Origin: Natronospiraceae bacterium | GTDB taxonomy: Bacteria > Pseudomonadota > Gammaproteobacteria > Natronospirales > Natronospiraceae | Assembly (NCBI GenBank): GCA_007133205.1 | Contig: SLND01000176.1 | Span: forward strand, 1 to 38,697 | Direction: 5' to 3' | DNA length: 38,697 nucleotides | Shown here: positions 15,954 through 37,782 of the stretch, piece by piece | Layout of the letters: each line of letters starts with the position of its first letter | Numbering within the stretch: the first letter of the stretch is position 1 | Made by a program: the position numbers and the translations under genes | Notes under the pieces: generated by a model | Databases searched by the model: none | Told to the model about the DNA's origin: nothing | Seen by the model: only the letters and a program-made list of their open reading frames with translations

Positions 15954-16046
15954 ACCACGAAGAGCACGAAGAAGGCACGAAGCTCGCGAAGAAGATTCCT
16001 GATTCCCTTCGTGTCCTTGTGGTTTTTCTTCGTGTGCTTCGTGTCA
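15954..16046. repeat. Inverted CACGAAG short-tandem-repeat element no. 1
   Basis: Left arm accacgaagagcacgaagaaggcacgaagctcgcgaagaag; right arm cttcgtgtccttgtggtttttcttcgtgtgcttcgtgtca. Confidence 0.8.
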
Positions 16047-16075
16047 GGAATCCCGGGTAATGGAAGCCCTCACCA

Positions 16076-21796: not shown

Positions 21797-21906
21797 GAAC
21801 ACGAAGACCACGAAGGAAAAACAGAAGGACACGAAGGAGATTACGTAATTTTGAAATAATCTTTCTTCGTGATCTTTTGTTTCCTCTTCGCGTCCTTCGT
21901 GTCGAT
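21797..21906. repeat. Inverted CACGAAG short-tandem-repeat element no. 2
   Basis: Left arm gaacacgaagaccacgaaggaaaaacagaaggacacgaagg; right arm ctttcttcgtgatcttttgtttcctcttcgcgtccttcgtgtcgatt. Confidence 0.8.
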
Positions 21907-21928
21907 TCAATCCATTTAATCGAAGCCT

Positions 21929-31347: not shown

Positions 31348-32172
31348 TCAGTCCGACAGTTGCGGATGCAGTATGGGCCGGCTGGGTACGGCGTCGGTTT
31401 CCAGTGGGGGATACTGGAGATTCAGGAGCCATAGCCCGTCTTCAATCGTGTCGGGCACGAAAACCATTTCGGTGATCGAGGCATGGGGATGTGCCGCCCG
31501 GCTCAAATCCCGCGTGCCCTCCGGCAGGCCCCAGAAGCTCCGGTGGGCGAGCAGCTCTCCGCCATCATCGGGCCGGTCCACCGAGGGTTGATCGGTCAGC
31601 AAATGACAGATCCCCTGGCCCGCAAGCCACTCGGCCGCTTCCGCCGTAAGCCAGGTCGAGGGTGGCCCCGACATCCAGTCCCGGACACATTTTTCCGGTG
31701 CATTGGGCAGGGTCCGCAGGATGATTGCGGCCGGTGCGATCCCGGGCGCTGCCGTTTCCCAGGCTGCACGCAGGCGCGCCCGGGAAATGACCGGATCGCC
31801 GGCCTCGGCAGGGCCGGGACCACGTTCGCCACTGGCTGCGAACTGACCCGGTTCCAGCGACAGGAGCAGGGCCGGAACCAGGACATTGCCGACCAGGTCG
31901 GGCACCGTGGCCCGGTCGTCGGTGATGTGGCCGACGCACTCGGTGTGGGTGCCATTGCAGTGGGGAATGATCTCGAGGACTTCACAGTTGCAGCTTCCAC
32001 CTTCGCGCGTGTCGCCGGTGAAACTGCCACTGCTCAGTGGCTTGCGTTGCGCGGGCGGTGCACCGAAGAAGCTCGGCTGCGGCCCGTCAAAATCCATGCT
32101 GATGGCGATCGAGTGTGCCGCCGTCGGCGACAGGTCAAAACGCAGTCCGTCGAGATCCGCCACCGCGCTCAT
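31348..32172 (-). CDS. Cyclase-family protein, putative kynurenine formamidase
   Basis: HCNGTHTECVGHI cyclase-like metal motif; ATGA overlap with the ACMSD gene within the kyn block. Confidence 0.75.
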   Translation of the reverse strand: MSAVADLDGLRFDLSPTAAHSIAISMDFDGPQPSFFGAPPAQRKPLSSGSFTGDTREGGSCNCEVLEIIPHCNGTHTECVGHITDDRATVPDLVGNVLVPALLLSLEPGQFAASGERGPGPAEAGDPVISRARLRAAWETAAPGIAPAAIILRTLPNAPEKCVRDWMSGPPSTWLTAEAAEWLAGQGICHLLTDQPSVDRPDDGGELLAHRSFWGLPEGTRDLSRAAHPHASITEMVFVPDTIEDGLWLLNLQYPPLETDAVPSRPILHPQLSD

Positions 32173-33194
32173 GCGCGAAACCGCTCCGGTGACAGACCGA
32201 GCCATTCCAGCGCCGTGCCGTGCAGCAGACGCTCGCGCTCCGCTTCTTCCAGTGACATGCTCTCGATCAGTTTGCCCGGCTCCAGTTCTCCCAGCGGGAA
32301 AGGATAGTCGGTACCCAGGGCGATGCGTTCGGCACCGACCATGTCGAGCATGAGCTGCAACACCTTCGGTTCATGGGTCAGGGAATCGAAATAGAGCCGG
32401 TCCAGGTACTGGCGTGGATCAATGTCATTGTCCACCGCACACAGGTCCGGGCGGACATTGAAACCATGTTCAATGCGCCCGATGGACGGCAAAAAACTGC
32501 CTCCACCATGGGCGAAGGCCACCCGCAGCCGGGGGAAACGTTCAAACACGCCCCCGAAGATGATGGAGCAGATGGCGCGGGTCGTCTCTGCCGGCATGCC
32601 CACCAGCCAGGGCAGCCAGTATTTCGACATGCTCTCGGCGCCCATCATGTCCCAGGGGTGGACGAAGATGGCGGCGCCCAGTCTTTCGGCCGTGGCCCAG
32701 ACCGGATCCAGCACCCGTTCGTTGAGGTTCCAGTCGTTGATATGTGAGCCGATCTGGATACCGGCCAGGCCCAGTTCACCGATACAGCGTTCCAGCTCGC
32801 CGGCCGCCCGGTCAGGATCCTGCATGGGGACCGTGCCAAGACCGACGAACCGGGTCGGATGGGCCGCCACCACTTCGGCGATGTGATCATTGAGAAAGCG
32901 GGAAAGGTCCAGGGCGTGTTCCGGTTTCGCCCAGTAACTGAACATCACCGGGACGGTGGAGAGCACCTGGACATCCACGCCGTGTTCGGCACAATCCGAC
33001 AGCCTCGCTTCCGGGTCCCAGCAATTGGGCTCGATCTCCCGGAAGGTCTTGCCGTCCCGAACCATCCGCTTGTTGCAACCGGTCTCGCAGGGTTCGAGCT
33101 GAACAAAGCCCCCGTAACCATAGCGTTCCTTCAGATCCGGCCAGTTCGGGGGCAGGATGTGGGTGTGGACATCGATCTTCAGTGAATTGGGCAC
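32169..33194 (-). CDS. 2-amino-3-carboxymuconate-6-semialdehyde decarboxylase (ACMSD)
   Basis: KIDVHTHILPPNWPDLKERYGYGGF, NCWDPEARL, VQVLSTVPVMFSYWAKPEHALDL, FVHPWDMMGAESMSKYWLPWLVGMPAETTRAICSIIFGGVFERFPRLRVAFAHGGGSF; GTG start inferred. Confidence 0.95.
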   Translation of the reverse strand: MPNSLKIDVHTHILPPNWPDLKERYGYGGFVQLEPCETGCNKRMVRDGKTFREIEPNCWDPEARLSDCAEHGVDVQVLSTVPVMFSYWAKPEHALDLSRFLNDHIAEVVAAHPTRFVGLGTVPMQDPDRAAGELERCIGELGLAGIQIGSHINDWNLNERVLDPVWATAERLGAAIFVHPWDMMGAESMSKYWLPWLVGMPAETTRAICSIIFGGVFERFPRLRVAFAHGGGSFLPSIGRIEHGFNVRPDLCAVDNDIDPRQYLDRLYFDSLTHEPKVLQLMLDMVGAERIALGTDYPFPLGELEPGKLIESMSLEEAERERLLHGTALEWLGLSPERFRA

Positions 33195-33236
33195 GAGCTG
33201 AATTTCCGGTTTCCAATTGATTTGTTTAGGAGTGAC

Positions 33237-33390
33237 GAGCTTCAAGCTACAAGTTACAAGCGTGACTCCGTGTGCTTTGGAGGTTACGCAAGACCGCCGG
33301 GATAGCTTTTGTCTCGTCGCACACGACTTCTTGTTCTCCAACGGGATGAATTTGTCGGCTTGTAGCTTGTGGCTTGAAGCTTGTAGCTGA
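33237..33390. repeat. Inverted heptad (GCTTGTN) short-tandem-repeat element no. 1
   Basis: Left arm agcttca agctaca agttaca agc; right arm ggcttgt agcttgt ggcttga agcttgt agct. Confidence 0.85.
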
Positions 33391-35846: not shown

Positions 35847-36035
35847 AGCTTCAAGTTTCAAGCTTCAAGCTGCAAGCTACAAGACGGGACGATCGGGCTT
35901 GAGGGTCAACTGCACCGCAAACAGGTGAGCTGAGCACATCGAATTATTTCCTCCCCCCACTGGGGGAAATCTGTCGGCTTGTCGCTTGTAGCTTGCAGCT
36001 TGTGGCTTGTGGCTTGTGGCTTGTAGCTTGTAGCT
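35847..36035. repeat. Inverted heptad (GCTTGTN) short-tandem-repeat element no. 2
   Basis: Left arm agcttca agtttca agcttca agctgca agctaca ag; right arm eight uninterrupted heptads ggcttgt cgcttgt agcttgc agcttgt ggcttgt ggcttgt ggcttgt agcttgt agct. Confidence 0.9.
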
Positions 36036-36040
36036 ATTAC

Positions 36041-36835
36041 TCAAATGCTTCGCGTTCGTCCGCCATCCACCGGGATACTATGGCCGGTGATGTAGGCAGC
36101 GGCGGGAGAGGCCAGGAAACCGATCGCGGCCGCCACTTCCTCCGCCTCGCCGAATCGCCCCATGGGCACCTGGGTCAGGGCCTCGGCCTCGACCTGCGCA
36201 AAGTCCTTGCCCGTCTTTTCGGCCTTGCCTTCGAACAGCTTCTTCAGGCGATCAGTCCGGGTAAAGCCGGGCAGGACATTGTTCACGGTAATCCCGTCCG
36301 GTGCCAGTTCGTGGGCAATGGTCTTCGCCCAGGAGGCCACCGCGCCGCGCACCGTATTGGACACCCCGAGACCGGGGATGGGTTCTTTCACCGAGGTGGA
36401 AATAATGTTGATGATCCGTCCGTAGCCGGACTCGCGCATGCCGGGCAACAGCGCCTGGAGCAGGATCTGGTTGCAGATCAGATGCCGTTGAAAGGCGGTG
36501 GTGTAGGCATCGCGCTCCGCGGTGTGCGCCGGTCCGCCCGGGGGGCCACCGCTGTTATTGACCAGGATCTGAAAGGGCCCCTGGTCCGCCACCCGCTCCC
36601 TGATCAGGCATTCCAGCGCCTCGGGCTGGTCGAAGTCGGCGGCGAACCAGTCGTGCTGCTGTCCTTCGCCGCCGGCCAGGTCCCCGCATACCTCGGCAAG
36701 GGCCTGTTCGTTGCGCGCGGTCAGGGTGACCGAAGCGCCCTGTTCCGCCAGGGTCCGGGCGGCGGCCCGCCCGATGCCCTGGCTTGCCCCGCAGACCAGA
36801 GCACGTATTCCGCCAAGCTTGATGTCCATTCCCAT
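36041..36835 (-). CDS. Short-chain dehydrogenase/reductase
   Basis: Start at MGMDIKLGGIRALVCGASQGIGRAAA; LVNNSGGPPGGP; C-terminal FLASPAAAYITGHSIPVDGG. Confidence 0.9.
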   Translation of the reverse strand: MGMDIKLGGIRALVCGASQGIGRAAARTLAEQGASVTLTARNEQALAEVCGDLAGGEGQQHDWFAADFDQPEALECLIRERVADQGPFQILVNNSGGPPGGPAHTAERDAYTTAFQRHLICNQILLQALLPGMRESGYGRIINIISTSVKEPIPGLGVSNTVRGAVASWAKTIAHELAPDGITVNNVLPGFTRTDRLKKLFEGKAEKTGKDFAQVEAEALTQVPMGRFGEAEEVAAAIGFLASPAAAYITGHSIPVDGGRTRSI

Positions 36836-36945
36836 GCGTCTCCCATCAGCGATTGCAAGATTCACGCCGCGCCCGGGAATGTACCAGAGATGGGGGATCA
36901 GGGAATGCTTTGGCTGGGCTGAGGCAGAAGCGGGTGTCTGCTTGC

Positions 36946-37782
36946 CTATTTCTGGCCGGGTTCCTGATAGCCGCGGCAGTCGATGCTGATCCAGCCTCCG
37001 TCGCTGTCGAGCCGCAGGCCGGTGAGGGCACCGCCCCAGACACAGCCGCTGTCGAGTGGATAGACATTGTGGCCGTGGATTTCCCCGACGGTGGACCAGT
37101 GTCCGAAGACGATGTGATCGTCGGCCGTGCGTCGACCGGGTACCGCATACCAGGGCAGCAGCCCCTCGGGCTGGCTGCCCGGCGGGCCTTTTTCCTTCAG
37201 GTCCAGGCGGCCTTGTGGCGTGACAAAGCGCATGCGGGTAAAGCAATTGATGATGAAACGCAGCCGATCATACCCGCTTAGTCCGGAATCCCAAAGATCG
37301 GGTTGGTTGCCGTACATGTGTTCGAGGAAATCACGAAAATCCGGGCCCTGCAGGACGGCTTCCAGTTCGGCTGAACGCTGCGCACTCTCGGCCAGGTCCC
37401 ATTGCGGCGGCAGACCGGCGTGCACCATGGCAAATCCACGGTCCGCCTCGTGATGAAAGAAGGGTCGACGCCGCAGCCATTCGAGCAGTTCTTCCGCATC
37501 CGCGGCATCGAGGATGTCGGTGAGCGTATCCTTGCTCCGGGGTTGATGGGCATCGCTGTAGGCAATTGCCAGCAGGTGCATGTCGTGATTGCCCAGCACG
37601 GTGACCGCATCTTCACCCAGGGATTTCACCAGGCGCAGCGCAGCGAGGGAATCGGGACCACGATTGACGATGTCGCCGGCGAACCACAGGCGGTCCCGCC
37701 CGGGATCGAAACTGATCCGGTCGAGAAAACGCTGCAGCTCTTCATGGCAGCCCTGGATGTCACCGATCGCGTAGGTGGCCAT
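36946..37782 (-). CDS. apaH: Bis(5'-nucleosyl)-tetraphosphatase (symmetrical)
   Basis: MATYAIGDIQGCHEELQRFLDRI, WFAGDIVNRGPDSLAAL, VLGNHDMHLLAIA. Confidence 0.97.
   Translation of the reverse strand: MATYAIGDIQGCHEELQRFLDRISFDPGRDRLWFAGDIVNRGPDSLAALRLVKSLGEDAVTVLGNHDMHLLAIAYSDAHQPRSKDTLTDILDAADAEELLEWLRRRPFFHHEADRGFAMVHAGLPPQWDLAESAQRSAELEAVLQGPDFRDFLEHMYGNQPDLWDSGLSGYDRLRFIINCFTRMRFVTPQGRLDLKEKGPPGSQPEGLLPWYAVPGRRTADDHIVFGHWSTVGEIHGHNVYPLDSGCVWGGALTGLRLDSDGGWISIDCRGYQEPGQK

Follow-up and report, generated by a model that had tools for sequence, protein, structure and literature searches.

The window, by which we mean the whole 38,697-nucleotide stretch of DNA that was analysed, comes from a bacterium of the Natronospiraceae and contains minus-strand genes assigned by Pfam to SDR, aldehyde dehydrogenase, Endoribonuclease L-PSP (RidA-like), 3-hydroxyanthranilate dioxygenase and amidohydrolase. 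By our reading, this gene set is a kynurenine-type (tryptophan degradation) cluster, and two of its junctions hold inverted arrays of a tandem heptad, referred to here as elements A and B. Both elements are flanked by genes that point in the same direction and form part of one putative operon.

Element A, to which no strand is assigned, spans positions 35847 to 36035. It lies between the aldehyde dehydrogenase gene (PF00171; 34369 to 35826, minus strand) and an open frame (36041 to 37246, minus strand) that holds the SDR domain (PF13561/PF00106) at residues 149-397. The left arm (35847 to 35883) consists of five heptads of the CAAGC type, reading AGCTTCA, AGTTTCA, AGCTTCA, AGCTGCA, AGCTACA and a final AG, while the right arm (35977 to 36035) consists of eight GCTTGNN heptads and a final GCT, reading GCTTGTC, GCTTGTA, GCTTGCA, GCTTGTG, GCTTGTG, GCTTGTG, GCTTGTA, GCTTGTA and GCT. 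TRF assigns period 7 to both arms, with 5.4 copies and a score of 55 on the left and 8.4 copies and a score of 83 on the right. The arms enclose a core of 93 bp (35884 to 35976) without an IVP ORF, and the right inner end of this core, AAATCTGTCG, is common to other copies. An earlier note on this DNA had described an array of eight units facing five, about 90 bp apart, between a dehydrogenase and an SDR gene. This array is real, and its outer coordinates are exact AGCT...AGCT ends. The in-register, period-7 arms also stand, but the proposed unit N-GCTTGT with a variable first base is better written as GCTTGNN, as it is positions 6 and 7 that vary. When up to two mismatches are allowed, GCTTGNNGCTTGNNGCTTG has 17 matches in the window, compared to 0.07 expected from shuffles.

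The same note reported a single array and overlooked a second copy, element B, at 33238 to 33388 (no strand assigned), with arms at 33238-33261 and 33358-33388 and a core of 96 bp. It is located between the gene for 3-hydroxyanthranilate dioxygenase (PF06052; 33395 to 33910, minus strand) and an open frame (32169 to 33341, minus strand) that contains an amidohydrolase, with its PF04909 domain starting at residue 56. The 5' end given for this frame is merely that of the longest open frame and, as the frame crosses the left arm of element B, the true start lies downstream of that arm. In RNA folding of the operon strand, elements A and B are far more stable than shuffles, with z of -5.3 and -4.8. 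Elsewhere in the window are two more inverted tandem elements, at 15956-16049 and 21798-21910, in which CACGAAG faces CTTCGTG with a period other than 7.

Copies in the genome and its relatives

The genome from which the window derives (G000; 2.07 Mb, 84% complete) encodes a dehydrogenase 77% identical to its counterpart in a Natronospira MAG. Across this genome, the heptad triple has 33 forward and 30 reverse matches, compared to one and none for the reversed-pattern control, and these matches amount to about 18 elements when halves at contig edges are counted. Three genomes of the same family have 101 (G001), 15 (G002) and 7 (G003) matches, and there are none in 15 order-mates. Further arrays, the search for which had been proposed in the earlier note, are present well above chance. 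Among the loci read outside the family in a pattern search of 369 genomes, there was one paired copy (G218), with a 52-bp core and no IVP.

Among 25 paired elements of G000-G003, the gaps between arms are mostly 84-110 bp, with one of 130 bp and three 11-bp mini-hairpins, and the number of heptads per arm in elements of these genomes ranges from 2 to 9. AGCT directly follows the outermost exact heptad on its outer side at 31 of 50 ends. The cores group loosely and show two inner motifs, TGGCCGTGCC and CGACAGATTT. A chance origin of the arrays was rejected, given the shuffle expectation, the nearly empty reversed control and the result of a detector of inverted arrays, which under strict settings found pairs at period 7 only. 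Decayed coding sequence, raised earlier as a possible source of the arms, was likewise rejected; no sign of it was seen in these copies, in which in-register arms and the same ends recur.

At the site of element A, the syntenic gap between the aldehyde dehydrogenase and SDR genes in G001, G002 and G003 contains no heptads. Other repeats are found in this gap (L105, L234, L235, L237), namely GGAGCGG/CCGCTCC hairpins in G001 and G003 and a CACAGATGAACACAG repeat in G002. The heptad-free gaps fit an insertion in the genome of the window. As the flanks have diverged and other repeats are present, no precise empty site could be read at nucleotide level in this gap. No target-site duplication was seen by eye.

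Inverted heptad arrays around IVP genes

ORFs of the S23/IVP type frequently lie between repeats, and PF05635 was therefore searched in 144 relatives. This family, 23S-IVP/S23p, is an Avd-like four-helix bundle, and the flanks of its genes were examined independently of their sequence. The best complementary flanks are mostly tandem heptads, among them AGGGAGT, CAGTTAT, AGTGTTC, GTGCTGC, GTGAGGG, AGTTCTG, GTGATTG and TTAATTG, with the heptad varying from one IVP element to another. Under a strict test, inverted period-7 arrays bracket the IVP ORF at 53 of the 88 loci tested across several phyla: 20 of 28 in gammaproteobacteria, 11 of 30 in other phyla and 22 of 30 in Xanthomonadaceae, the last set having been fetched once the test was already fixed. 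Many of the 35 loci that fail the strict test show irregular inverted arms. The controls gave 2 of 336 shifted positions, 0 of 1601 intervals at dehydrogenase loci and 4 of 2600 in G001, and the other periods over 90 loci (5, 6, 8, 9, 10, 11 and 12) gave 0, 1, 4, 3, 0, 0 and 0, respectively.

The detector uses only lag-k self-similarity and the complementarity of two arrays, and is blind to the letters of the heptad. In 800 kb of G001 it found six inverted pairs at period 7 and none at periods 5, 6 and 8-12 with strict settings, and nine at period 7 with one each at periods 6 and 9 with looser settings. In chosen stretches of G002 (L214-L230), periods 6 and 11 likewise gave inverted pairs, 18 each.

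At 51 of the 53 bracketed loci, G outnumbers C in the arm upstream of the ORF, indicating that the ORF and its arms are oriented together as a single unit. The two arms at these loci lie a median of 397 bp apart. The CAAGC-type arms of the window are not G-rich in the sense of the IVP arms, and resemble the CAAGTNN arms of one IVP locus (L160). IVP pairs with more than 60% identity mostly have the same heptads; overall, the co-variation between heptad and protein is weak, with a correlation of 0.12 that was reached by 8 of 500 permutations and is confounded by taxonomy. The nearest solved relative of one G002 IVP is 2GSC (XCC0516), which we take to be a protein of Xanthomonas campestris. A location of the IVP elements inside 23S rRNA was rejected, as Rfam searches of 15 loci returned no LSU rRNA and just tRNAs and one RtT RNA. 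Within the 3-kb locus, tRNA genes are found at 5 of these 15 (L156, L149, L160, L161 and L170), and a site preference is possible.

Copies with and without the ORF occur together in single genomes. G142, a genome in one contig, has a single IVP match with CAAGTNN arms and 266 genome-wide matches of that triple (control 0), and most of the CAAGTNN arrays sampled there pair, with gaps of 7-205 bp. In all ten Xanthomonadaceae genomes with IVP, the GGGAHYC triple has 16 to 238 matches (control 0), a count of arrays irrespective of pairing and of ORFs. On contig 3 of G002, an IVP element shares a stretch of 10 kb with three ORF-less copies; all four have AGTGAAC arms, and their cores begin alike, with CTGGCCGTGCT, CTGGCCGCGCC, TTGGCCGTGCC and CGGGCCCTGCC. 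In addition, G002 contains a GTGAGGC-arm element nested inside an AGTGCTG-arm element. The stretch G002:C6:9251-19221 (L214), which includes the nested element, is a cluster of the heptad families GTGAGGC, AGTTCTG/AGTGCTG and AGGAGCA.

For the GCTTGNN heptad of the window, the connection to IVP goes via these other heptads, as none of the 30 IVP loci read from the 144 relatives has GCTTGNN arms. The motif TGGCCGTGC is common to the IVP element on contig 3 of G002 and to several ORF-less GCTTGNN elements in G000-G002. With at most one mismatch, it is found just inside the GCTTGNN arms at 9 of 50 ends, compared to 0.28 in shuffles, a comparison that is generous because the motif was chosen after inspection. 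Even so, the motif joins elements whose heptads differ, and one of these elements codes for an IVP. Searches of G000 and of G001 (97% complete) yielded no IVP ORF, although G001 is the richest in copies; with many copies and no IVP match, activity in G001 may have ceased or may require other genes.

Comparison with known repeats

The 23S rRNA IVS is cut by RNase III, and that of Coxiella burnetii has GACAGAT heptamers, in a number that varies among strains, 5' of the S23p ORF (PMC4990558). Similar to the 23S rRNA IVS, elements A and B have inverted terminal arms that give a long stem in the predicted RNA folds, and ORF-carrying relatives of the window elements, for example in G002, contain a PF05635-type ORF. 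In contrast, the window elements are intergenic between metabolic genes rather than inside 23S rRNA and, unlike the Coxiella IVS, have no IVP ORF and carry heptads in both arms. In Xanthomonas, about 70-75 intergenic pairs per genome of two opposed GGGAATC heptamer arrays lie close together (Rehm et al., 2015, PMC4692102). A quadruplex reading was offered for these pairs, and IVP is not mentioned in the searched portion of the article text (Rehm et al., 2015, PMC4692102). The opposed layout matches that of the window, and GGGAATC-type heptads bracket IVP ORFs in Xanthomonadaceae, whereas the GCTTGNN heptad of the window is no G-quadruplex former. Many intergenic arrays of the heptamer TAACTGA are found in Beggiatoaceae; unlike the window elements, nearly all of these stand alone as direct arrays ahead of start codons and do not form inverted pairs (MacGregor, PMC4679880).

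Like simple heptamer repeats (LSSR/STRR), the window elements are intergenic and built of tandem 7-nt units, although their paired inverted layout exceeds that definition. They resemble MITEs in being short, intergenic, ORF-less and dispersed in many copies with terminal inverted repeats, and differ from them in having arms of tandem heptads, no known transposase partner and no visible target-site duplication. For other heptads, the ends are common to ORF-carrying and ORF-less copies (G142 and G002); for GCTTGNN, this applies to just the inner motif.

Origin of the elements

Of the readings offered in the earlier note, the one with the best support is a mobile non-coding repeat, in view of the dispersed copies, the AGCT ends, the heptad-free syntenic site in three relatives and the nesting. 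A slippage-prone hairpin is plausible as well, given the strong RNA folds and the variable number of heptads per arm. Slippage by itself would go further: replication slippage and hairpin-templated repair would create and expand arrays wherever an intergenic inverted repeat exists, without transposition, and IVP elements would be one more such repeat. That heptads differ widely among elements while both arms of one element match agrees with this, as do the range of arm lengths and the strain variation of the Coxiella IVS heptamers (PMC4990558). However, the many dispersed copies of one heptad per genome, the common inner motifs and AGCT ends, the nesting and the constant orientation of the arms with respect to the ORF are left unexplained, and slippage alone is an unlikely origin.

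Movement by a Y1 (RAYT) transposase, as in REP/BIME elements, is scarcely plausible. The window elements share with REP/BIME their small intergenic hairpins and high copy number, and Y1_Tnp genes are present in G001, G002, G003 and G142, but Y1_Tnp has no match in G000, period-7 pairs bracket none of the 22 Y1_Tnp loci examined, and GCTTG/CAAGT arrays are absent from these loci save one chance doublet. The GGAGCGG hairpins located close to several RAYT genes belong to another type of repeat. A hairpin with a cis-regulatory or mRNA-stabilising role, maintained by selection at these operon junctions, would agree with the position of both window copies in one putative operon and with their folding on the operon strand. 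Yet the same junction holds other repeats in G001-G003 and copies occur on many other contigs, so that a local effect on mRNA is possible while the family is not explained by it, making this a very improbable account of the elements as a whole.

Inverted tandem-heptad arrays form the ends of the elements and are associated with IVP ORFs. The same end architecture is found around genes of the widespread IVP family in many bacteria, suggesting that the orphan repeats are related to this selfish element but lack its gene. Elements A and B are probably ORF-less, MITE-like members of a small dispersed hairpin family whose ORF-carrying members encode 23S-IVP/S23p (PF05635). The ORF-less copies presumably descended from ORF-carrying ones and spread, now or formerly, along with them.

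For such a family, a read-through transcript would fold into a single long stem from both arms, as in the 23S rRNA IVS, and this stem could make the element tolerable within an operon. Like the IVS, which RNase III cuts, the elements may be tolerated or processed at the RNA level. The RNA hairpin, or a DNA cruciform, could then be the substrate from which either the IVP protein or an enzyme of the host copies the element elsewhere, and IVP may aid the spread. Slippage in the tandem heptads would lengthen or shorten the arms, with pairing kept in any register.

More tentatively, inverted heptad arrays could be the characteristic termini of a class of mobile hairpins that spans phyla and has gone unrecognised, in which the Avd-like IVP bundle is the sole protein and ORF-less copies number tens to hundreds per genome; we hold this broader proposal to be a serious possibility short of a probable one. 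Its separate parts, the Coxiella IVS heptamers and the Xanthomonas GGGAATC pairs, are already known; no paper linking inverted heptad arrays with IVP ORFs was found in a literature search that had most subscription journals outside its scope and leaves priority unproven. Heptamer repeats are the commonest long simple repeats reported in many bacterial genomes. To our knowledge, there is no accepted reason for this abundance, and we know of no established function for the IVP/S23p protein. The bracketing rule connects these two questions and makes both testable. If the proposal is true, the mobile hairpin class would account for orphan heptamer repeats between genes, as in Xanthomonas, and the 23S rRNA IVS would be one special insertion site of this class.
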